NCBI RefSeq assembly: GCF_000732725.1
Contig: NZ_JPNB01000001.1
Span: forward strand, 868,001 to 932,000
Reading direction: 5' to 3'
Length of the DNA stretch: 64,000 nucleotides
Source: Kineothrix alysoides
Lineage (GTDB): Bacteria; Bacillota; Clostridia; Lachnospirales; Lachnospiraceae
Below, in pieces: positions 38,286 to 49,423 of the stretch. Under the pieces are notes generated by a model that was given only the letters and a program-made list of their open reading frames with translations, was not told the DNA's origin and did no database searches. The position numbers were made by a program, and so were the translations under genes. Positions within the stretch are counted from its first letter, which is position 1, and every line of letters begins with the position of its first letter.

Positions 38286-38374
38286 GTAGAAGGGCGTTAT
38301 TATTCGTATGAAAAATAAGTTTTTCATACGTGGCTTTGAGCTTGCAGTCCGAAGTCTGCAGGCATTGGAAGGAC

Positions 38375-39556
38375 ATGATTATTAATATGGGACAAGGAAT
38401 AGATATCACAATCGCGCAGTTGGAAGAACTGGGAAAACAGGATTACATGCTGGTTGATGTCAGGGATGAAATATCCTTCGGACACGGATATATACCCGGA
38501 GCGGTAAATATCGGTATGAGCCGGATAGAACAGGGAGATTATGAGCTGCCGAAGGATAAAAAGATTATATTATACTGCGGAAAAGGAATTATCAGCGCAG
38601 ACGCAGCAGGACTTTTGAATGCGCGCGGCTTTGAAGCATATAACCTGCGAAGCGGCTACGGTGCATGGCTTCTGTCCTCTTTAGAAAAAGAAGCGGACAG
38701 AGAAGGTGCGGAGGAAGCCAGATGTGAAGAAATTGAAAAAAGCATTAAAAAGAAATTCCACAAAGCACTTTTTTCCAGATTCGCCAAGGCAATAAACACC
38801 TATGAGCTGGTAAAGGAGGGGGATAAAATCGCCGTATGTATATCCGGCGGCAAAGACTCCATGCTCATGGCTAAGCTGTTTCAGGAGCTGAAACGGCATA
38901 ATAAATTTCCTTTCGAGCTGGTATTTCTTGTAATGGACCCGGGCTACAACGAGACAAACCGTAAAGTGATTGAGAATAACGCCAGATTGTTAAAGGTTCC
39001 TATTACTGTCTTTGAAACGAATATTTTTGAATCCGTCTATGAAGTGGAGAAATCTCCCTGCTATCTCTGCGCGAGAATGCGCAGAGGCTATTTGTACAGC
39101 AAGGCAAAGGAGCTTGGCTGCAACAAAATCGCTTTGGGGCATCATTACGACGATGTCATCGAGACGATATTGATGGGAATGCTATACGGCGGACAGATAC
39201 AGACTATGATGCCGAAGCTCCACAGCACTAACTTCGAAGGCATGGAGCTGATACGCCCGATGTATCTCATTCGCGAGGATGACATTAAGCACTGGAGAGA
39301 TTATAATAATCTGCACTTTATTCAATGCGCCTGCCGCTTCACAGACAATTGCACTACCTGCCGGAGTGACGGGAGTATGGGCTCAAAGCGGATGGAAATC
39401 AAGGAGCTGATTAAGCAGCTTAAGAAAGTGAATCCATATGTAGAGGGTAATATTTTTAAAAGCATGGAAAATGTAAACCTAAGCACAATCGTTGCATATA
39501 AGGAAAACGGTATTGTACACAATTTCTTGGATAATTATGATAAAGTAGAGGAATAG
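38375..39556 (+). CDS. Rhodanese-TtcA fusion, tRNA thiolation enzyme
   Basis: This protein of about 393 aa joins two sulfur-handling modules. An N-terminal rhodanese domain (about 5-110) carries the sulfur-accepting Cys in YCGKGI. The C-terminal module (about 125-360) is a TtcA-like PP-loop ATPase with SGGKDSM, the cluster-type CYLC motif and LGHHYDDVIETILM, plus a final CACRFTDNCTTC. TtcA thiolates C32 of tRNA using an iron-sulfur cluster. The fusion suggests persulfide delivery within one chain. The start is ambiguous: ATG 38375 is close to GGAAGG, and ATG 38387 is further. Its 3' end is duplicated at 49,452. Confidence 0.88.
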   Translation: MIINMGQGIDITIAQLEELGKQDYMLVDVRDEISFGHGYIPGAVNIGMSRIEQGDYELPKDKKIILYCGKGIISADAAGLLNARGFEAYNLRSGYGAWLLSSLEKEADREGAEEARCEEIEKSIKKKFHKALFSRFAKAINTYELVKEGDKIAVCISGGKDSMLMAKLFQELKRHNKFPFELVFLVMDPGYNETNRKVIENNARLLKVPITVFETNIFESVYEVEKSPCYLCARMRRGYLYSKAKELGCNKIALGHHYDDVIETILMGMLYGGQIQTMMPKLHSTNFEGMELIRPMYLIREDDIKHWRDYNNLHFIQCACRFTDNCTTCRSDGSMGSKRMEIKELIKQLKKVNPYVEGNIFKSMENVNLSTIVAYKENGIVHNFLDNYDKVEE

Positions 39557-39751: not shown

Positions 39752-39910
39752 ATGATGAAAGTAGTGCATCAAAAAGACAGTATAAGTAATCAGGAATGGA
39801 ATAAAATCAAGGAATATATTGAGGCGATTTCCTATGGTTCTGTAACAGTTGTAGTGCAGGATGGAAAGATTATTCAGATTGAGAAGAATGAGAAAGTAAG
39901 ATTAAAATAG
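39752..39910 (+). CDS. YezD/DUF2292 family small protein
   Basis: This 52-aa protein matches the DUF2292 (YezD) pattern: WNKIKEYIEAISYGSVTVVVQDGKIIQIEKNEK. Function is not established, though I recall such genes beside sulfur-assimilation genes. The frame is open from 39704, but GATGAGGTGTGTC precedes ATG 39752 (with ATG 39755 as a close alternative). It has its own terminator and lies at the head of the sulfur-themed cluster. Confidence 0.75.
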   Translation: MMKVVHQKDSISNQEWNKIKEYIEAISYGSVTVVVQDGKIIQIEKNEKVRLK

Positions 39911-39950
39911 GGACTATATAGATGAAAAGGACAGTAGAGGCTGACCGGAA

Positions 39951-40003
39951 AACCGGAGGCTTCAAAGCAGACATATGTACTGCTTTGAAGCCTCCGGTTT
40001 TTT
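39951..40003 (+). terminator. Very strong terminator just before tRNA-Cys
   Basis: A perfect stem of about 20 bp (arms 39951-39970 and 39980-39999, containing CCGGAGGCTTCAAAGCAG) with loop ACATATGTA and six T residues. It ends only 9 nt before the tRNA, leaving no room for a separate promoter. Confidence 0.9.
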
Positions 40004-40011
40004 GCAAATCA

Positions 40012-40083
40012 GGTGTCGTAGCCAAATGGAAAGGCAAGAGTCTGCAAAACTTTTACATGCTGGTTCGAGTCCAGCGGGCACCT
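40012..40083 (+). tRNA. tRNA-Cys (anticodon GCA)
   Basis: The 72-nt cloverleaf has acceptor GGTGTCG with GGGCACC, D stem GCC/GGC, anticodon stem AGAGT/ACTTT with loop CTGCAAA (anticodon GCA), T arm GCTGG-TTCGAGT-CCAGC and discriminator T, as tRNA-Cys requires. Position 7 pairs G with G, a mismatch. CCA is not encoded. A terminator hairpin abuts it upstream, and no terminator separates it from the ABC gene 44 nt downstream, so it may be processed from an operon leader. Confidence 0.85.
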
Positions 40084-40126
40084 CTTCGCTTTATAAAAAA
40101 GAAAGTGACGCTGAGAGGAGATTAAA

Positions 40127-40879
40127 ATGCTGGAAATTAAGGATGTACATAAAAAATTTGGAAACAATGAAGTGCTTAAGGGAGTATCTATTACCGTGGA
40201 AAAGGGTGATGTAGTAGTCATTTTAGGACCAAGCGGCTCCGGTAAGACGACCCTGCTCCGGAGTATTAATTTTTTGGAGCGGGCGGATAAAGGCACTTTG
40301 CACTTTGATGAGGTGTCTTTGGATTTGAAACACGCTTCCCACAAGGAAGTGCAGAAAGTTAGAAAAAAGACAGCATTTGTTTTTCAGAACTATAATCTCT
40401 TTTCCAATAAAACAGCTTTAGAAAATGTAACAGAAGGTCTGATCATTGGGCGGAAAGTGCCGAAGAAGGAAGCGGAGGAAAGCGGAAGACGGGCATTGGA
40501 TAAGGTAGGTCTTTCCGATAGATACCATTATTATCCAAGCCAGCTTTCCGGAGGGCAGCAGCAGAGAGTTGGAATTGCAAGGGCGGTGGCAGTGAATCCG
40601 GATATCATTTTGTTCGATGAACCGACCTCCGCGTTAGACCCGGAGCTGATCGGGGAAGTTCTGAATGTTATGAAGGAACTGGCAAAAGAAGGAACGACCA
40701 TGGTAGTGGTAACCCATGAAATGCATTTTGCAGAGGAGGTAGCAAATAAAGTCATATTCATGGATGACGGAAAAGTGCTGGAGGAAGGAACACCGCAGGA
40801 TATTTTTTCCCATCCAAAGGAGGAAAGAACAAAGCAGTTTTTACACCGGATACTGCCGGATTTTGATTACGTCATATAA
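40127..40879 (+). CDS. Polar amino acid ABC transporter, ATPase subunit
   Basis: This 250-aa ATPase powers import of a polar amino acid. Walker [12 protein letters not shown] is near residue 34, the Q-loop is in FQNYNLF, the ABC signature is [14 protein letters not shown], and Walker B is [14 protein letters not shown], with the H-loop in VVTHEM. It is of the GlnQ/TcyC type. Its partner binding protein and two permeases lie downstream, separated by the two nitrogenase-like genes, so one operon is likely. GAGAGGAG precedes the ATG. A sulfur amino acid substrate is inferred from context. Confidence 0.92.
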
Positions 40880-40905
40880 AAATGAAAAGAGAGGAAATGG
40901 AAAAA

Positions 40906-42384
40906 ATGAGTATCAATTTATCAAATTCACAGGTAAATATTCGCGACAGCCGCCTGGGCTCTATTACATCCTATCATGGAGATGCCCAGACTCTGATAGA
41001 CCAATCCAAAGATAGGGCGCTCCACTTTAGAAACCGTTCCTACAGCCAGTGCAGCGACTGCTCTCAAGGATGTGCGGAGACACTGGTGTACCATATCCGT
41101 GGGGCGGCAGTGGTGACCCACGCACCGATTGGCTGCAATGCAGGTGTTTCCGGACAGAATTACACAGCACGGGCAGTATCTGTGGCAAGAGGTCAGGAAA
41201 TACACAATGTACATATGATCAGCACCAATATTCAGGAAAAAGACACCGTTTATGGCGGACTGGAAAAACTGCGCGAGACAATTCAGGAGGCTTATGATCG
41301 TTTTTCTCCATCGGCTATATTTGTCACCTCCTCCTGCGCGTCCGGCATCGTAGGCGATGATATTGAAAGTGTTACTTGCGAGATGGAGAATGAATTGGGA
41401 ATTCCTGTGATTCCGGTGTTCTGTGAAGGTTTCAAATCCAGAGTATGGACTACAGGTTTTGATGCAGCCTATCACAGTATCTTGAGAAAACTGGTAAAAC
41501 CGCCTCAAAAGAAGCAGAAGGATCTTGTTAATATTTTTAACTTTCAGGGCGGCGATACCTTTAGCTCTCTGTTAAAGAAAATGAACCTGAGAAGTAATTA
41601 TCTGGTACCCCTTGCTACAGTAGAACAGCTGGCAGAAATGTCAGAGGCGGCCGTCTCCGTCCATATGTGTGAAACCTTGGGTACCTATATTTCCGCCGCA
41701 TTGGAGGAGCAGTATGGTGTACCTGAGGTAAAGGCACCGGCACCCTTTGGAGTAGAATGGACAGATAAGTGGATTCGTGCTATTGCCAAAGAAACCGGCA
41801 GGGAAAAACTTGCCGAGAAGGTGATTGCACAGGAGCATGAAAGAATTGCGCCGCAGCTTCAGGAAATCAGAGAAAAACTGAAAGGCAAGAAGGTTTATGT
41901 CTTTGCGGGTGATTCCTTTGCCCATAGTCTGGCAAATCTGGCAATCGATGTAGGTCTGGAGCTGGTGGGCATCACGACATTGCATCATGACCAAAAGGTG
42001 GATAACACAAACAGTGAAGAGCTGATCACATTGGATAACCTGATCAAAAGCAGAGGAAATATAACCGAGTTTTCGGTATGTAATAAACAACCCTATGAGG
42101 TAATAAAGATTTTGAAGCGCCTGCGTCCTGACGTGATGATTGTGCGTCACCAGGGATTGACGGTTCTGAGTGCCAAGTTGGGGATTCCGGCTATCAACGA
42201 AGGCGATGCTAATGCCAGCGTAGGCTATGACGGTGTGATTAAGTTTGGTAACCGCGTTTATGATGCACTCCGTACAATTAAATTTGAAAAGAATATTGCA
42301 GCGCATGTGAAGTTCCCTTACAGCAAATGGTGGCTGGAAGAGGAACCGGATCCATTCTATTTTGAAAAGGAGGAAGAAAAATAA
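40906..42384 (+). CDS. Nitrogenase component 1-like protein, D-type subunit
   Basis: This 492-aa protein has the NifD/NifE-type fold. P-cluster-type cysteines are present: the CSDCSQGC group (49, 52, 56), Cys77 in APIGC and Cys144 in SSCASGIVGDD. Cys255 in VHMCETLGTYISAALEEQYG aligns without gaps with the FeMo-cofactor ligand Cys275 of NifD. The His442 ligand (HGYDG) is replaced: SVGYDG has Val439. So it may bind a metal cluster, but not in the nitrogenase way. It is unlikely to fix nitrogen. The start at ATG 40906 is 11 nt after AGAGAGG; ATG 40897 or 40882 are alternatives. Confidence 0.88.
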   Translation: MSINLSNSQVNIRDSRLGSITSYHGDAQTLIDQSKDRALHFRNRSYSQCSDCSQGCAETLVYHIRGAAVVTHAPIGCNAGVSGQNYTARAVSVARGQEIHNVHMISTNIQEKDTVYGGLEKLRETIQEAYDRFSPSAIFVTSSCASGIVGDDIESVTCEMENELGIPVIPVFCEGFKSRVWTTGFDAAYHSILRKLVKPPQKKQKDLVNIFNFQGGDTFSSLLKKMNLRSNYLVPLATVEQLAEMSEAAVSVHMCETLGTYISAALEEQYGVPEVKAPAPFGVEWTDKWIRAIAKETGREKLAEKVIAQEHERIAPQLQEIREKLKGKKVYVFAGDSFAHSLANLAIDVGLELVGITTLHHDQKVDNTNSEELITLDNLIKSRGNITEFSVCNKQPYEVIKILKRLRPDVMIVRHQGLTVLSAKLGIPAINEGDANASVGYDGVIKFGNRVYDALRTIKFEKNIAAHVKFPYSKWWLEEEPDPFYFEKEEEK

Positions 42385-43742
42385 TGAGTACAATTATTGA
42401 GCAGCCCCGATATTCCTGTGCACTTTCTGCGCTACAGACTGTTCTTGCAATACCCAGAGCACTGCCCATTGTACATGCTGGACCGGGTTGTGCCTCCAAA
42501 GCTTTTGGAGCGGTAGCAGGAGCAGCAGGTTATCAGGGCGAAGGCTTTGGCGGCGGTGCGGCGGTGACCTGTACAAACACCGGAGAAGAGGATGTGGTTT
42601 TCGGCGGTGAAAATAAACTTAGGAAAACGATTGAAGGAGCGCTTAAGGTGCTGGACGGCGATTTGTTTGTCGTAGTATCAGGCTGTACATCAGACATTGT
42701 GGGTGACGACTCCATTCATGTGGCAGAGGAATACCGCAAGAAGGGCTATCCGATTGTAGGCACGGAGACGGCTGGCTTTAAGGGAAATAATTATTATGGA
42801 CATGAAATAGTGGAACGAGCAATTATCGAAGAATTCGTGGGGGATGTGGAACCGCAGGTGAGAAAAGGGCTTGTTAATGTCTTTTCGGTAGTTCCCTATC
42901 AGGACCCGTTCTGGCGGGGAGATCTGCAGGAAATCAAAGGACTGCTAAAGGGTATCGGTCTGGAAGTGAATATTCTGTATGGCTATGAATCGAAGGGAGT
43001 AAGCGAATGGAAGGACATTCCGAATGCACAGTTTAATCTGGTGCTGTCCCCATGGATGGGAGTGGATATCGGAGAGCTGCTCAAGAAAAAATATGAAACT
43101 CCTTATCTGCATTATCAGGTTTTGCCTGTAGGCGCTCAGGAAACAAGCCAGTTCTTGCGAACCGTGGGTGAATTTGCAGGACTTCCCAAGGAACAGGTAG
43201 AAACAGTAATCACAAAAGAGGAAGATGTGTTTTACCAATATCTGATTTCAATTACAGATTTTATCGCGGATTTGCGCAATAATCTTCCGCATGAGTTCTA
43301 TACGGTGGCAGACAGTGCTTATGCTCTTGGTACAAGCAAGTTTCTGGTAGAGGAACTAGGATTTATCCCAAGAGGAGTTTACATTATTGACGATGCTCAG
43401 GGCAAAAATGCCAAGCTGATTGAGAAGGCAGTGGATGGGCTTGGAAAGGAGTTTCAGGGCTTAGTCAGAATAGAAGCGGACGGCGGACATATTGAAAAGG
43501 ATATCCGTTCTAAAATCAATAGTGGAAAGAAATCCCTGCTGCTTGGCAGCACATGGGAAAAAAATCTTGCTGCGGAGACGGCAAGTGAACATTTGTTTTT
43601 AAGTATTCCAATCAATGACGGAGTGGTTGTCAATAGAACCTACCTCGGTTATAAGGGCGGGTTAAGGCTGCTCGAAGACATCTATGACGGAATATTCAAA
43701 AATGGCAATATTGCCAGAACAACACTGACCACACTTGGCTAA
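42384..43742 (+). CDS. Nitrogenase component 1-like protein, K-type subunit
   Basis: This 452-aa protein pairs with the preceding subunit; its ATG shares a base with that gene's stop (TAATG), so equal amounts are made. P-cluster-type cysteines are at Cys12 (YSCALSALQT), Cys36 (HAGPGCASKAF) and Cys101 (VSGCTSDIVGDD), matching NifK in order and spacing. It lacks the NifK N-terminal extension. Together the two could form a heterotetramer with P-like clusters. A reductase partner of the NifH type is not in the window. Confidence 0.88.
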   Translation: MSTIIEQPRYSCALSALQTVLAIPRALPIVHAGPGCASKAFGAVAGAAGYQGEGFGGGAAVTCTNTGEEDVVFGGENKLRKTIEGALKVLDGDLFVVVSGCTSDIVGDDSIHVAEEYRKKGYPIVGTETAGFKGNNYYGHEIVERAIIEEFVGDVEPQVRKGLVNVFSVVPYQDPFWRGDLQEIKGLLKGIGLEVNILYGYESKGVSEWKDIPNAQFNLVLSPWMGVDIGELLKKKYETPYLHYQVLPVGAQETSQFLRTVGEFAGLPKEQVETVITKEEDVFYQYLISITDFIADLRNNLPHEFYTVADSAYALGTSKFLVEELGFIPRGVYIIDDAQGKNAKLIEKAVDGLGKEFQGLVRIEADGGHIEKDIRSKINSGKKSLLLGSTWEKNLAAETASEHLFLSIPINDGVVVNRTYLGYKGGLRLLEDIYDGIFKNGNIARTTLTTLG

Positions 43743-43796
43743 GGAAAGCTGACTTAAAGTGTGCGATTGCGCTAAGGCGCGGGAAAGGAGAACATT

Positions 43797-44732
43797 ATGA
43801 GGAAATATGGAGTATTAGGATTAGGAATTGTGCTGGCGTTAGGAGCCGGCACTCTGGCAGGTTGCGGAAACGCTGCAGCAGCGCAGACATCACAGGCAGC
43901 CGGCACATCTGCGGAGCAGGCAGTACAGACAGCAGACACTGCCGCAGATGCGGAGCAGCAATCGGAGACAGCAGAAAACACAGAAGTGCGGACAATCAAA
44001 ATCGCACATACGGAAAACGGAGTTCCCTACGGCTATGTGGATGATGACGGAAAGTCTACCGGTTATGATGTAGAGGTACTGCGCCTGGCGGATGAATTGA
44101 TTCCGGAGTATGCATTTGAATTTATAGGGACAGGCTCCTCCACAGATGCCTGGGTTGGCGCGCAGGAAGGAAAGTACCAGATTGCCATTACTAACAGCTT
44201 TTATACGCAGGAGCGTGCGAAGAACTATATCATTCCGGAGCACTGGTTGGGAGCCTGCCTTGGAGGCATTATTGTCCGAAAGGAAAACGCAGATGTAGAC
44301 AGCTTTGAGAAAGCTTCCGAGCAGGGGTTTAAGCATGTGCCGATCAAGGCAGGAGATGGATGGCAGTTCGTTCTGGAGGATTACAATGCCAAACACCCGG
44401 ATAAACAGGTGGAATTTGAATTGACAGACAACGAAGACTGGTCAGTAGGAATCCCATATGTGGCAGAAGGCAGGTATGATTTGTTCGGAACCATTAAGAC
44501 TTTGTGGACCCGTGCAGTGGAAGCAGAGGACGGTGCTTATCATGATTTGTATGACGATCTGGTATTTAATGAGTTCCTCGGTATAAAGACTTATACGTTA
44601 ATTAATAAAAATGAGGCGGACCTTGCAGAGAAGATCAACGATGCACTGATTGAACTGGAGAAAGAAGGTAAATTGTCCGAGGTTTCCATACAGTTTTATG
44701 GTGAGGACCTTACACAGTACATAGAAGATTAG
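43797..44732 (+). CDS. Amino acid ABC transporter substrate-binding lipoprotein
   Basis: This 311-aa protein has a signal peptide ending in the lipobox LAGC (Cys near residue 22), an Ala/Gln/Glu-rich linker, then a family 3 binding domain (IKIAHTENGVPYGYVDDDGKSTG). It is tethered outside the membrane and captures the substrate for the importer. GGAAAGGAG precedes the ATG. The transporter's other genes flank it, and the nitrogenase-like pair is directly upstream. The ligand cannot be read from sequence. Confidence 0.92.
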   Translation: MRKYGVLGLGIVLALGAGTLAGCGNAAAAQTSQAAGTSAEQAVQTADTAADAEQQSETAENTEVRTIKIAHTENGVPYGYVDDDGKSTGYDVEVLRLADELIPEYAFEFIGTGSSTDAWVGAQEGKYQIAITNSFYTQERAKNYIIPEHWLGACLGGIIVRKENADVDSFEKASEQGFKHVPIKAGDGWQFVLEDYNAKHPDKQVEFELTDNEDWSVGIPYVAEGRYDLFGTIKTLWTRAVEAEDGAYHDLYDDLVFNEFLGIKTYTLINKNEADLAEKINDALIELEKEGKLSEVSIQFYGEDLTQYIED

Positions 44733-44777
44733 TGAGCTGGGAGACTTCGGGTACTTCCACATTAAGGAGTGAGAACT

Positions 44778-45491
44778 ATGCTTCGATTTAATACTGAAAT
44801 TTTTTGGGAATCATTTCCCCAGCTTTTACGGTATTTGCCGATTACCTTTGAAATGATTTTTTTATCGCTGCTTTTAGGCGTCATATTGAGCCTGGCACTG
44901 GTGGTTATGAAGCTGGGTAAAAGAAAGGCCTTGAGAAAATTTTCGAATGGATACACTACGGTCATACGCTGTACGCCAAGTATTGTATTACTCTTTTTGG
45001 TATATTATGGACTGCCCAAAGTCGTTGCCCGGTTTGGCGTGAATATTGACGAATGGAATAAACTTTTTTTCGTAGTTCTCACTTATGCACTGATGAGCGC
45101 AGGAGGCTTGTCTGAGGTAATGCGCTCTTCCTATGAAGCTATTCCAAGAGGACAGACGGAAGCAGCATTAAGCGCTGGTTTAACAAGACTTCAGACCCTA
45201 CGGCGGATTGTGTTACCACAAGCTTTTGTAGTAGCGCTTCCCAATTTAGGCAACACGGTAATTTCCATCCTGAAAAACGGGGCATTGGCTTATACCATTG
45301 GGTTTGCAGATATGATGGGAAAGGCTACCCGCATCATTGCCAAGCGTTATACCACTTATGCATTGGAGACTTATGTTGCTTTGGCAATCATATATTGGGT
45401 GATATGTATTCTGATTGAACAAATTATTAAATTTGGGGAACAAAGATTGGAAAAACGAAAGATTAAGGCGGCAAAGGAGGGAATCGGATGA
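44778..45491 (+). CDS. Amino acid ABC transporter permease (first)
   Basis: This 237-aa HisM-type permease has about five membrane helices and the ATPase-contact EAA loop, SYEAIPRGQTEAALSAGLTRLQTLRRIVLPQA. RCTPSIVLLFLVYYGLPK is also typical. AAGGAG lies 8 nt before ATG 44778; an in-frame GTG at 44769 is inside the RBS. Its stop overlaps the next permease gene by 4 nt (ATGA), as expected for a heterodimeric channel. Confidence 0.92.
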   Translation: MLRFNTEIFWESFPQLLRYLPITFEMIFLSLLLGVILSLALVVMKLGKRKALRKFSNGYTTVIRCTPSIVLLFLVYYGLPKVVARFGVNIDEWNKLFFVVLTYALMSAGGLSEVMRSSYEAIPRGQTEAALSAGLTRLQTLRRIVLPQAFVVALPNLGNTVISILKNGALAYTIGFADMMGKATRIIAKRYTTYALETYVALAIIYWVICILIEQIIKFGEQRLEKRKIKAAKEGIG

Positions 45492-46189
45492 ACTGGACTT
45501 TTCTTTATCAGACACTTATTCTGGTGCTTCATGGAATACCGATGACTCTGTTTCTAACGGAAGTCTCCCTGCTTTTTTCGGTGCCGCTTGCTTTTGGCAT
45601 TGCCCTTGTAAGAAAAAATAATGTAGCTGTTCTTGACAAGATATGTGCTGCATATGTTTCCTTTATCCGCGGAACACCAGTTATTCTGCAGATTTATGTA
45701 ATATATAATATTGTACCAAGTATTTTGGCGGTACTGTTTGAAATGTGGGGCATAGACTATCCGGTTTACGAGATAAATCCGGTAATTTACGCCATTATCA
45801 TCTTTTCCCTAAGTACATCGGCAACAATGTCGGAGGTAATCCGTTCTGCTCTTGCGACGGTGGACAAAGGACAGTATGAAGCTGCGGTAACCATAGGATT
45901 AAGCGGCAGGCAGGCATATTTCAGAATTGTTTTTCCGCAGGCGCTGGTGGCTGCAGTTCCCAACCTGTGTACTCTGGTAGTGAATCTAATCAAATCTACC
46001 TCGCTGGCATTTGCAATGACTGTACAGGATATAACAGCCATTGCCAAAATCGAGGCTGCTTCCGGTTATAATTACATAGAGGCATATCTTGATATTTTTA
46101 TTGTGTATCTGGTATTGTGCTCTGCAGTCGAGCAAATTTTCAAACTGGTGGAGTGCAGGCTGAAACGATATAAATCAGCAACCATTTAA
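45488..46189 (+). CDS. Amino acid ABC transporter permease (second)
   Basis: This 233-aa permease has the HisM-type layout, with FIRGTPVILQIYVIYNI and the EAA loop ALATVDKGQYEAAVTIGLSGRQAYFRIVFPQA. It forms the channel with the preceding permease, which it overlaps. GGAGG lies about 8 nt upstream. The PLP enzyme gene follows after 23 nt, so uptake and breakdown are probably co-expressed. Confidence 0.92.
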   Translation: MNWTFLYQTLILVLHGIPMTLFLTEVSLLFSVPLAFGIALVRKNNVAVLDKICAAYVSFIRGTPVILQIYVIYNIVPSILAVLFEMWGIDYPVYEINPVIYAIIIFSLSTSATMSEVIRSALATVDKGQYEAAVTIGLSGRQAYFRIVFPQALVAAVPNLCTLVVNLIKSTSLAFAMTVQDITAIAKIEAASGYNYIEAYLDIFIVYLVLCSAVEQIFKLVECRLKRYKSATI

Positions 46190-46212
46190 GGAGAAAGGTA
46201 AAAGATAGTATT

Positions 46213-47352
46213 ATGCGAGAAAAAACGAATTTTGTGCATGGATATAGTGGTGTTTCTAAGGATACAGGGGCAATCAGTTTTCCTATTTATCAGGGAGTTA
46301 CCTTTGCGCATCCGGCATTGGGGGAGAATACAAGGGGGTTCGCCTATGCAAGGGCGGACAGTCCGACCCGACAGGAATTTGAGAGAAGCCTTGCCTTGTT
46401 AGAACATGGGGTGCGTGCATGGGCGTTCTCCAGCGGGATGGCAGCTATTTCTGTGTTTATTAAGCTGTTTGATGTGGGAGATCATCTGATTGTATCGGAG
46501 GACCTGTACGGAGGCACCTATCGGCTGTTTACGGAGGTTTATGAAAAATACGGTCTTACTTTTGACTATGTGGATACCAGTAGCCCGGAGAAAGTAAATG
46601 CGGCAATCAAACCGAACACGAAGGGAATCTTTATAGAAACACCCTCCAATCCGCTGATGCATGTCACGGATATAAAGGCGGTGGCTGAGCGGATGAAGGA
46701 AATCGGAGCGGTAGTAGCGGTGGACAATACTTTTTTGTCTCCCTATTTTCAAAAGCCGCTTGATCTGGGGGCAGATTTTGTTATTCATAGTGCTACAAAA
46801 TATATTGGAGGGCACAATGATGTGCTTGCAGGAGCCCTGATAGTAAAGGATGAAAAATGGATAGAGCCGATTTTCACGATGGCGATGTCAGAGGGCGGCA
46901 CTTTGGGTCCAAGTGACAGTTGGCTTCTCTTAAGAAGTTTAAAGACACTGACAGTTCGTATGGAAAGGCAGCAGGAAAACGCCATCAGGATTGTAGAATA
47001 TATGAAAAAACATCCGAAGATAAAAAGGGTGTTTTACGTAGGAGATGAGAACCATCCGGACCGGGAAGTTACACTGAAACAGACCACAGGTTTTGGCGGG
47101 ATGATTTCGTTTGCCCTAAAGAACGGGGAGAAGGTACCAGAGATTCTGAAGCGGTTTCAGGTTATCACTTTTGCGGAAAGTCTTGGCGGTGTGGAAAGCC
47201 TGATCACTTATCCGATGATCCAGACTCATGGAGCAATTCCAAAAGAAATGCGGGAGCGGCTTGGGGTCAATGATAAGCTTTTGCGACTGTCGGTAGGAAT
47301 CGAGGATGTGGACGATTTGATTGAGGATTTAGAACAGGCGTTATCTATTTAG
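46213..47352 (+). CDS. PLP-dependent Cys/Met metabolism enzyme (cystathionine/methionine lyase-like)
   Basis: This 379-aa enzyme belongs to the gamma-family that includes cystathionine gamma-synthase, cystathionine lyases and methionine gamma-lyase. SSGMAAISVFIKL, YGGTYRLF, ETPSNPLMHVTDI and the PLP-lysine motif SATKYIGGHND are present, and SLGGVESLITYP is the C-terminal signature. It cleaves or exchanges a C-S bond beta or gamma to the amino group. Which substrate it uses cannot be decided; in this operon it likely acts on the imported sulfur amino acid or a product of the nitrogenase-like protein. Confidence 0.92.
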   Translation: MREKTNFVHGYSGVSKDTGAISFPIYQGVTFAHPALGENTRGFAYARADSPTRQEFERSLALLEHGVRAWAFSSGMAAISVFIKLFDVGDHLIVSEDLYGGTYRLFTEVYEKYGLTFDYVDTSSPEKVNAAIKPNTKGIFIETPSNPLMHVTDIKAVAERMKEIGAVVAVDNTFLSPYFQKPLDLGADFVIHSATKYIGGHNDVLAGALIVKDEKWIEPIFTMAMSEGGTLGPSDSWLLLRSLKTLTVRMERQQENAIRIVEYMKKHPKIKRVFYVGDENHPDREVTLKQTTGFGGMISFALKNGEKVPEILKRFQVITFAESLGGVESLITYPMIQTHGAIPKEMRERLGVNDKLLRLSVGIEDVDDLIEDLEQALSI

Positions 47353-47368
47353 CGGAAGGAGATAATGG

Positions 47369-47770
47369 ATGGCATACAGGATTGCGGTAACCTCCTCGGA
47401 CGGGAGCCATGTAGATGAGCATTTTGGACAGGCTGAAGACTTTTGGGTCTATGAGGTGGAGGAGGAGACAGGAATTACCAGCTTGGTTGAAAGACGGAAG
47501 ATAAAGCGTAGCTATCGGAATCGGATGTGCAAAGAAGAAGTTTCTGACTGCGGTGGCTGCTGCGGAAGGGACGACGGCTATGTGTCCTATGTGGCGGAGC
47601 AGTTGCAGGATTGCATTTTTTTGCTTACCGGGCACATTGGCAAGAAGCCATATAAAACACTGGAAAGAAAAGGAATCGCAAGTCTGGAAACGCCCTATGG
47701 ATTGGAGGAAGCAGTTGCCAAATTGAATATTTATTATAGAAGATGTTATAGGAAAAATAGGAAAGTATAG
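47369..47770 (+). CDS. NifX/NafY-like iron-molybdenum cofactor-binding domain protein
   Basis: This 133-aa protein has the dinitrogenase cofactor-biosynthesis fold found in NifX, NafY and the NifB C-terminus: RIAVTSSDGSHVDEHFGQAEDFWVYEV, with the cluster-binding His in DEHFGQ. An unusual cysteine knot, DCGGCCG, follows near residue 55, and FLLTGHIGKKPYKTLERKGI is the typical end. Such proteins carry or protect complex metal clusters. Its presence argues that the component-1-like proteins hold a real cofactor. AAGGAG is 7 nt from ATG 47369. Confidence 0.85.
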   Translation: MAYRIAVTSSDGSHVDEHFGQAEDFWVYEVEEETGITSLVERRKIKRSYRNRMCKEEVSDCGGCCGRDDGYVSYVAEQLQDCIFLLTGHIGKKPYKTLERKGIASLETPYGLEEAVAKLNIYYRRCYRKNRKV

Positions 47771-47809
47771 AAAAAGCTTAATTTCGGCGCATGAAAGGAG
47801 ATGCAGACT

Positions 47810-49423
47810 GTGGCAAAGATTTTTTATCCAGATTTTTTTAATGATGTATTTGGTCCCATTATGCAGCCCGGTTCCAGCGGTTCATTTGCCGGAACCAGCC
47901 GCGTGGGCAGGATAGCGGGGAGTCTTTTGAGGGATGAGGTCAGGAGTGTGGAGTTTTGTTTTAACAAAAGCGAAGAAGGAAGATTTAAACAACTGGGAAA
48001 CATGATGGATGACAGAGGCTTTCTGGGGGGTGTAATGGGTTTTCCTACCGATGATGTCCGCCTTTTCGATGCTCATAAAATAGCCAGAGAAAAAGGGATT
48101 TCCTATCGTTTTGTGCTGGGGGACAGAGATAACGGACATAAAGGAAGCGTGACGATTACAGTGTCTGGAAAAAAGGAAGAAACAGCCAGCCTTATTGGTG
48201 CCTCTGTAGGGGGAGGCATGACTCGCATTTATGAAATAAACGGCTTTGCGCTTTCGTGGCAATCAGATACCTACGGTGTACTCATCGAAGCGATACGGAA
48301 GGAAGGAATCACAGAACAGCTTCAGCGGTTTGAACTGGTGTGGAAGCAGACGCATGTGGAGACCACTTTACTTACGTCCGCCGATGGAAGAGACGCATAT
48401 TTTATTGAGTTATCCGAAGCGCCTTCCAAGGAGGAGCTGGACAGTATCTTTAAGGGACAAAAGGTAATATTGCTTCCGGCTGTGTTGCCGGTAGTGACAA
48501 AAAGGAATAAAAAGCCGCAGTTGTTTAGCACAGTGGAGGAATGGAGAGAGGTGGCAAAGGAAAGAAAGATTTCCTTTGTACAGGCGGCAATTGAATACGA
48601 GAAAGCATCTTCCGGCTGGAAGGATGAAGAAATTTGGGACTTCTTTGAAAAGATAGCTGATATTTTAAACAAGCAGATACATTCATTGGAGACCATAGGT
48701 TATGAAAATGCTTTAGACACACCGCTTCTGCCGGTTTATGGTAAACAGTGGAAAAAGTATCTGGACAGAGGAAACCCACTCAGCGATCCGCTGACCAGAC
48801 ATATTCTGACACATGCCTATGCGGTCAATGCCAAATTGCCCGGAGTGCTGATCGTGCCGGGACCTATGGGAACAGGCGGAGGCTACCTGTTTTCGGCATT
48901 GGACGCCTTACGTGAGGAGCGGGGATTTTCCCATGAGAAATTAGTGGAATCGCTAGTAGTGGCCGCTGCTCTTGGGGCCATTGCCTATACTCACACCAAT
49001 GCCAGCGGTGAGGTGGGGTGTGTGGGAGAGTCAGGAGTATGCTGCGCTATGGCTTCCGGTGCGGCTGCCTGGCTTGCCGGAGGTGATGGGGAGATGGTGG
49101 AGCATGCAGCCTCCATGGCACTTCAGGCCAATATGGGCTTGTGCTGTGACCCCATACCAGGTGGTCTGGAATTCCCCTGTATCACCCGTACCTTGCGGGC
49201 AGCCGTGACAGCGCCCATGTATGCGGAAATGGCACTGACGGGAATCGATCCTTTGATTCCATACCACGAATGTCTGCAGGCGATTGAGCTGCAATTTAGA
49301 AGAGTACCAAAGAAGTTTCTATGTGGAAATGAGTGTGGCTGCAACACAACGCCAACAGCAGATAAGTGCCGCGCCTTTCTTACAAGTCAGATGCAGGGCA
49401 ATCTGCAGTATCACCGGGAATGA
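47810..49423 (+). CDS. Iron-sulfur serine dehydratase-like protein, altered beta-domain motif
   Basis: This 537-aa protein fuses the beta and alpha regions of 4Fe-4S L-serine dehydratases. Cluster cysteines are conserved in GEVGCVGESGV and CCDPIPGGLEFPC. The beta-domain signature, usually PSSSHTAG, reads PGSSGSFAGTSRVG, so substrate contacts differ. Extra cysteines occur near the end (CGNECGCNTTPTADKC). The same fold includes L-cysteine desulfidase, so with this neighbourhood a cysteine or related beta-elimination is plausible. AAGGAG is 9 nt from GTG 47810 and abuts ATG 47801, so GTG is preferred. Confidence 0.85.
   Translation: MAKIFYPDFFNDVFGPIMQPGSSGSFAGTSRVGRIAGSLLRDEVRSVEFCFNKSEEGRFKQLGNMMDDRGFLGGVMGFPTDDVRLFDAHKIAREKGISYRFVLGDRDNGHKGSVTITVSGKKEETASLIGASVGGGMTRIYEINGFALSWQSDTYGVLIEAIRKEGITEQLQRFELVWKQTHVETTLLTSADGRDAYFIELSEAPSKEELDSIFKGQKVILLPAVLPVVTKRNKKPQLFSTVEEWREVAKERKISFVQAAIEYEKASSGWKDEEIWDFFEKIADILNKQIHSLETIGYENALDTPLLPVYGKQWKKYLDRGNPLSDPLTRHILTHAYAVNAKLPGVLIVPGPMGTGGGYLFSALDALREERGFSHEKLVESLVVAAALGAIAYTHTNASGEVGCVGESGVCCAMASGAAAWLAGGDGEMVEHAASMALQANMGLCCDPIPGGLEFPCITRTLRAAVTAPMYAEMALTGIDPLIPYHECLQAIELQFRRVPKKFLCGNECGCNTTPTADKCRAFLTSQMQGNLQYHRE

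Follow-up and report, generated by a model that had tools for sequence, protein, structure and literature searches.

A nitrogenase-like gene pair, sister to methylthio-alkane reductase, lies in a conserved operon with an amino-acid-type importer and lyases in Kineothrix alysoides and is a candidate C–S bond reductase

The nearest described relative of the system considered here is methylthio-alkane reductase (Mar), which is presented in PMC12552129 as the only nitrogenase-like enzyme described with both of the large nitrogenase clusters, related clusters also being found in NifEN and in the methyl-coenzyme M reductase activation complex. According to that paper, Mar contains a P-cluster and an [Fe8S9C] cluster, the latter bound by Cys270 and His429; the Arg428-His429 pair is a possible hallmark of the enzyme, and the active site is lined by Cys73, Gln74, His194, Trp195, Phe199 and His375. 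We analysed a 64,000-nucleotide stretch of the Kineothrix alysoides genome (RefSeq assembly GCF_000732725.1, contig NZ_JPNB01000001.1), referred to as the window (C1:868001-932000; the genome comprises 4.68 Mb in three contigs), in which one operon holds genes for NifD- and NifK-like subunits (D and K), an ATP-binding cassette (ABC) importer and two lyase-type enzymes. By analogy with Mar, we favour with moderate confidence the reading that this D/K pair is a Mar-type C–S bond reductase for an imported organosulfur nutrient that resembles an amino acid. Below, L-numbers denote fetched stretches, G-numbers denote genomes, and W is the clade of the window D and K.

Judged by sequence, the D/K pair has known relatives, and among those with a solved structure MarDK is the closest. 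Against the Protein Data Bank (PDB), the window D matched 9fmg_A (E 1.1e-140) and 9d9u_A (6.7e-140), compared with 3e-41 for the best NifD (472.6 bits for Mar versus 144.7 for NifD), while the window K matched 9d9u_C at 1.9e-126 (425.6 bits), with the next match at 9.2e-20 (73.9 bits). Both entries are given as methylthio-alkane reductases in the structure-search listing obtained with a predicted structure of the window D, which itself ranked such entries first; that model is weak (mean pLDDT, the predicted local distance difference test score, of 64, from a three-sequence alignment) and is used as support only.

The relationship was refined with a D tree of 80 proteins (73 from fetched stretches, the window, a second nitrogenase-like cluster of the same genome, Rhodospirillum rubrum MarD and four Nif-type outgroup rows) and a K tree of 75 rows, both built without IsrD, NfaD or Cfb sequences. 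The window D falls in the seven-member clade W (support 100/99) together with Butyrivibrio sp. AC2005 (L111), whose D is 70% identical to it, G595, G689, G959, G991 and plasmid pTS2 of Treponema saccharophilum. An eleven-row MarD clade (100/100) is the sister of W, with joint support of 100/98. The K tree, which comes from a short search with no bootstrap, recovers the same seven genomes (99) and joins them to the MarK side in a group of 18 rows (89). The initial annotation had named membership of a characterised clade as one finding that would count against it; the pair comes close to this, since in both trees it lies not inside the MarD/MarK clade but as its sister. An approximately unbiased test, whose scope was the window and Butyrivibrio pair rather than the whole of W inside Mar, rejected a grouping of these two with Mar that excludes the other W rows (p 0.00015). 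Terminal branches are long or moderately long for four of the W rows, and those of G689 (0.99) and Treponema (0.73) are flagged as long.

Several side observations were made on the same material. The D of the second cluster lies outside both Mar and W, in a branch that it shares with many other fetched D rows from Clostridia. A separate and deeper D-like clade (L103, L106, L110, L141, L145, L148) has no equivalent of Arg428 and keeps the P-cluster and Cys270 positions. On pTS2 (L150 2981-13232), two different Mar-like D/K pairs are arranged around an ABC transporter with sulfonate-type matches, and type I-C CRISPR genes lie about 5 kb beyond them. In-frame stops were listed in the D matches of L026, L052, L054 and L061 (plus strand), of L015, L019 and L021 (minus strand), and of G480 and G189; recoded codons were rejected for L026, L052, L054 and L061, where the stops lie upstream of the start codon.

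The alignments suggest that W combines the cluster ligands of Mar with a changed pocket. The window D keeps the three P-cluster cysteine positions (MarD 66, 91 and 158, assigned by alignment) and the window K keeps its own three, present without exception in the 75 K rows; Cys270, Arg428, His429, Trp195, Phe199, His375 and the P-cluster cysteines of D are kept in 7/7 W rows. By contrast with Mar, the window D has Thr, Leu and Val in place of Cys73, Gln74 and His194. Cys73 and His194 are kept in 11/11 Mar rows and changed in every W row, and Gln74 is retained in a single W row, G991. Next to the cluster ligand Cys270, position 271 is acidic (Glu or Asp) in all seven W rows and in 0/73 others of the 80-row alignment, and the same distribution is seen for Trp300, Asp351, Lys415 and Asn450; Glu446 is present in six W rows and in none of the 73 others. 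These clade-specific columns were chosen after the fact and are descriptive; their placement near the cluster is presumed, for position 271 from its adjacency in sequence to Cys270. An Asn facing MarD His450 was at one point considered a lost cluster ligand, a suggestion that was dropped because the Mar ligand is His429, which lies in another loop and is kept in the window.

The gene set, order, single direction and coordinates that the initial annotation read in the window are borne out by open reading frames and domain searches (Table 1), and the main Pfam match of each operon protein lies over its cut-off, so that chance is excluded. From 40127 to 49423 all genes are on the forward strand with gaps of at most 54 bases and two overlapping pairs. 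Its supposition that the neighbours would be conserved with D and K also stands: Butyrivibrio sp. AC2005 keeps the order and G595 most of it, both with PatB-type lyases added. The Butyrivibrio genes run PatB C–S lyase, Cys/Met-metabolism pyridoxal phosphate (PLP) enzyme, MORN-repeat protein, NifB-like, two NifX-like, NifH, ATPase, D, K, solute-binding protein (SBP), two permeases, PLP enzyme and Fe-S dehydratase; the last eight match the window at 48-74% identity, and the window differs in having a NifX-like gene between the PLP enzyme and the dehydratase. In G595 the order is PLP enzyme, PatB, CysK-like, NifB-like, NifH, D, K, NifX-like, SBP, two permeases and ATPase; the dehydratase is missing, and the opposite strand encodes an Rrf2 regulator that scores below the CymR cut-off. 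G689 has CysK-like, SBP, two permeases, K and D. Besides the Butyrivibrio and G595 clusters, a PatB C–S lyase lies about 12 kb from the W-type D in G959. Permeases like those of the window (at least 30% identity, within 8 kb of D) occur at three of the six other W loci and beside 0/67 non-W D genes; the Fisher p of 0.0003 for this linkage was computed post hoc on related rows, leaving out the window, and is descriptive.

Both permeases pass the general model TIGR01726, and their nearest equivalog is a cystine permease model whose cut-off they do not reach. The SBP is nearest among solved proteins to 4c0r, 4eq9, YtmK and Lmo2349, all of which we take to be sulfur-nutrient binding proteins, the first two presumably binding glutathione. 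The PLP enzyme is nearest to cystathionine gamma-lyase/homocysteine desulfhydrase and reaches the cut-off of none of the 25 listed models. In the Fe-S protein, the serine dehydratase alpha domain has kept the cysteines conserved in its family, presumably including the cluster ligands. The protein shares 62% identity with its Butyrivibrio counterpart, 36% with a paralogue and 32% with the best PF03313 match of the genome, and a separate PF03313 gene in the genome scores far higher (263 bits).

These features bear on two alternative substrates. The enzyme might reduce amino-sulfonates such as taurine or cysteate and release sulfite, resembling isethionate reductase (Isr) but with the large cluster. 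Ssu-type matches are found near three of the six other W loci (Treponema saccharophilum, G959 and, as a weak match of 24%, G991), acidic residues in the pocket would be well matched to an ammonium group, and Isr demonstrates that a nitrogenase-like enzyme can desulfonate (PMC11423573). We consider this unlikely, given that the window, Butyrivibrio and G595 carry an amino-acid-type importer together with lyases for thioether or thiol amino acids, and that IsrD, as characterised in that paper, is without P-cluster and Cys275 ligands that are present in W. Equally, the pair could be an ordinary methylthio-alkane reductase that acts on volatile methylthio compounds in methionine salvage, with the transporter a mere neighbour, as its position beside MarDK and its hallmark Arg-His pair would allow. 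This too we hold to be improbable: W is a separate clade in the D and K trees, the pocket residues Cys73 and His194 divide the two groups cleanly, the transporter genes recur in the operons of Butyrivibrio and G595, and a Mar-type and a W-type D occur together in one G959 locus (L139), which suggests different jobs.

The initial annotation had also remarked on the lack of NifH and NifB and had allowed for a different electron donor. The lack holds for the window operon and not for the genome, and is not a property of the system. Four PF00142 matches were found in the genome, one of which is a full-length NifH at C1:591009-591818 (418 bits, over the TIGR01287 cut-off). It belongs to the second cluster, about 0.33 Mb from the window operon (L009 3142-19846 and L010 272-2392; C1:575141-594391), which also has a NifB-like radical SAM gene at L009:13689-14564. 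The first part of this cluster comprises a methionine-type transporter, a Cys/Met PLP enzyme, a cysteine-synthase-like protein, DUF4418, an FtsX-type permease, an ABC ATPase, D and K; then follow NifX-like, the NifB-like radical SAM, MetY-like, a sulfonate-type SBP, permease and ATPase, NifH, RACo-like and V4R genes. Model searches covered D/K, NifH, DUF4418, FtsX, radical SAM, RACo and V4R, and the other names come from reading the sequence. The radical SAM gene is called NifB-like because it is 58% identical to the Butyrivibrio NifB-like gene, whose best NCBIfam model is nifB (277 bits, below the cut-off of 344), and the NifH proteins of the second cluster and of Butyrivibrio share 81% identity. 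The simplest history would be that a local NifB and NifH were dropped from the window operon or were never present, and that the second cluster supplies both.

Three further rival readings concern the pair itself. It might serve as a NifEN-like scaffold that matures the reductase of the second cluster, as could be suggested by the occurrence of two Mar-like pairs in one genome and of a NifX-like gene in the same operon as the window pair. In Butyrivibrio and G595, however, the window-type pair is the only PF00148 pair (genome searches; completeness of the Butyrivibrio genome is not stated), which argues against a scaffold role and indicates that the NifB/NifX/NifH/D/K set can stand alone; with the P-cluster cysteines and Mar cluster ligands kept and D/K adjoining MarDK in the tree, we regard a scaffold as very unlikely. 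An electron donor other than NifH, to which the absence of NifH from the window operon might point, is just as hard to credit when NifH is encoded elsewhere in the genome, next to the pair in both Butyrivibrio and G595 (in the former upstream with a NifB-like gene in the operon itself) and about 6 kb from the W-type D in G959. That the pair belongs to the nitrogenase family and fold notwithstanding, an N2-fixing nitrogenase is the least credible reading of all, as the positions equated with nitrogenase Gln191 and His195 (equivalence from PMC12552129) hold Trp and Phe, the cluster His is in the Mar loop, and the four PF00148 matches in the genome are the window pair and a second Mar-like pair at C1:582619-585257, with no NifEN-type pair among them.

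We return to the preferred reading, a C–S bond reductase for an amino-acid-like organosulfur compound. Reductive C–S cleavage is suggested by the sister relationship to Mar and the conserved cluster ligands, and an amino-acid-like substrate by the type of importer, the accompanying lyases and the acidic residue 271. The ABC importer would bring the compound into the cell, where a D/K heterotetramer, with a P-cluster and an [Fe8S9C] cluster (by homology) held by the equivalents of Cys270 and His429, would receive ATP-driven electrons from the NifH of the second cluster (in two relatives, from a NifH within the operon). The NifB-like radical SAM protein, acting in trans here, would build the cluster precursor and the NifX-like protein would carry it. 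A two-electron C–S cleavage might then yield a thiol or a simpler sulfur amino acid, from which the PLP enzyme and the Fe-S lyase/dehydratase could release sulfide or a thiol, ammonia and a keto acid, feeding cysteine and methionine synthesis; we infer all the steps after reduction. Purely as an illustration, S-methylcysteine could give cysteine, or methionine homocysteine, which the lyases would then turn into sulfide, ammonia and a keto acid. The operon thus probably lets anaerobic bacteria break C–S bonds to obtain sulfur. The idea in the initial annotation of a metal-cluster C–S reductase tied to uptake and cleavage of sulfur compounds is accordingly in keeping with the sister position, the importer, the lyases and the conserved order, the particular substrate and products being conjectural; its suggestions that the system lacks NifH and NifB or may use another electron donor are not supported. 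More tentatively, W may be the first case of a nitrogenase-type enzyme devoted to a substrate of amino-acid character: an [Fe8S9C] cluster with an acidic residue beside its Cys ligand would reductively split a C–S bond in a zwitterionic sulfur compound taken up by the cell, and the remaining breakdown would fall to dedicated PLP and Fe-S lyases.

A number of points weigh against the preferred reading. The ATPase scores 322.4 bits with the TcyN equivalog, below the NCBIfam cut-off of 406, and the cystathionine-lyase and serine-dehydratase models are likewise below their curated cut-offs. The SBP has no clear second Asp of the classic amino-acid binders (by alignment), so its ligand may be larger or modified. 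Among the relatives, the G689 SBP is only 21% identical to that of the window, an Fe-S dehydratase lies near D at just one of the six other W loci, and the Ssu-type matches described above take the place of an amino-acid importer at three of them, so the W substrate class may not be uniform. The D of the second cluster also has Mar as its best match among solved structures (4.1e-134): Mar is the only solved member of the branch, and by sequence the match places the D branch and not the W clade. That the in-trans NifH serves the window D/K is inferred, and we know of no activity for any W-clade member.

Proteins like the window D are infrequent. Matches at E 1e-30 or better were found in 25/150 family genomes, at 1e-100 or better in 3/16 genus and 22/391 class genomes, at 1e-120 or better in 9/398 phylum genomes and at 1e-135 or better in 13/397 family genomes; the samples overlap, and the window's own genome is counted among the matches in each. 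Outside the window itself, the best D identity in the rank-sampled searches was 58% (G959), and the two other same-genus matches were of the second-cluster type (45% identity). A peptide-pattern scan of the species-genome collection, with patterns drawn from a single protein rather than an alignment and with few named relatives, returned Butyrivibrio sp. AC2005 (70%) and a distant deltaproteobacterial relative (34%).

In front of the operon stand a small DUF2292 protein, which we take to be YezD-like, a hairpin and a tRNA-Cys gene. The hairpin ends 7 bases before the tRNA, occurs at a single place in the genome and was not listed by a simple terminator scan. The tRNA is the only genome match to one Cys anticodon-arm pattern, with no similar second copy, and is apparently the sole tRNA-Cys gene of the genome. 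The closest promoter-like match on the forward strand (39879-39908) is upstream of the hairpin, and therefore the tRNA, and perhaps the operon, may be transcribed through it. Riboswitch searches gave no convincing Rfam family besides the tRNA upstream of the operon, and none at gathering scores in L009. The other six members of W were covered by seven stretches, in which no tRNA was found, and the link of the tRNA to the operon looks either incidental or regulatory. Further upstream, the rhodanese/PP-loop gene is probably not part of the operon; homologues of it lie near D in 3/67 non-W rows (L086, L087, L091).

Table 1. Features of the operon and its upstream region (window positions).
Feature	Position	Strand	Evidence
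Rhodanese + PP-loop (TtcA-like) sulfurtransferase, upstream neighbour	38330-39556	+	PF01171, PF00581
YezD-like small protein, DUF2292	39752-39910	+	PF10055 E 4.9e-19
Very stable hairpin with a terminal T run, just ahead of the tRNA	39946-40004	+	-46.3 kcal/mol, z -9.5
tRNA-Cys (GCA)	40012-40084	+	tRNA prediction
ABC ATPase, polar amino-acid type, TcyN nearest (below cut-off)	40127-40879	+	Pfam and NCBIfam models
NifD-like catalytic subunit, W clade, sister of MarD	40882-42384	+	PF00148 282.7 bits, tree
NifK-like subunit, W clade, sister of MarK	42384-43742	+	PF00148 195.8 bits, tree
Extracellular SBP, family 3	43797-44732	+	Pfam, structure-database matches
ABC permease, polar amino-acid type	44769-45491	+	TIGR01726 over cut-off
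ABC permease, polar amino-acid type	45488-46189	+	TIGR01726 over cut-off
Cys/Met-metabolism PLP enzyme, nearest cystathionine gamma-lyase/homocysteine desulfhydrase	46213-47352	+	PF01053 E 2.4e-141
NifX/NifB-C-terminal-like cluster-binding protein	47369-47770	+	PF02579 7.4e-14
Fused beta+alpha Fe-S serine-dehydratase-like enzyme, conserved cysteines kept	47801-49423	+	Pfam, alignment

Few reactions are known for nitrogenase-like enzymes, and W, with the same ligands as Mar, a different pocket and a defined importer, is a concrete candidate for a second substrate of large-cluster chemistry. If the reading is true, Butyrivibrio-like anaerobes gain a route to sulfur from organic matter, and the finding may help to put right annotations in which genes of this kind are taken for nitrogen fixation genes. 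No account of a clade sister to Mar and linked to an amino-acid importer was found in the open PubMed Central literature, seen mostly at the level of titles and abstracts.

Among known systems, the importer is of the same polar amino-acid ABC type as the TcyJKLMN-type cystine and organosulfur importers, and its SBP is nearest to 4c0r/4eq9 and YtmK; it differs in an ATPase that falls below the TcyN cut-off and in sharing one operon with a reductase. Heliophilum NflDK is similar in that several Nfl D/K pairs are present, one of which belongs to the MarDK clade, and more than one pair is proposed to share a single NifH-like protein, but no linkage to an amino-acid importer is described in the part of PMC9147875 that was available. 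The isethionate reductase IsrBHDK is likewise nitrogenase-like, engaged in sulfur assimilation and accompanied by a sulfur-compound transporter, whereas, as described in PMC11423573, IsrD keeps one of the three P-cluster cysteines and has no Cys275 equivalent, all of which the window D keeps. Closest of all is MarBHDK of Rhodospirillum rubrum (PDB 9FMG, 9D9U; PMC12552129), with which the window pair shares near full-length D/K homology, the P-cluster cysteines, the cluster ligands, Trp195, Phe199 and His375, and W relatives also share NifH- and NifB-like partners. It is set apart from MarBHDK by the replacement of Cys73, Gln74 and His194, by the acidic 271, Asn450 and other residues specific to W, by its membership of a separate clade, and by its association with amino-acid importer and lyase genes, the NifH- and NifB-like genes being in trans.

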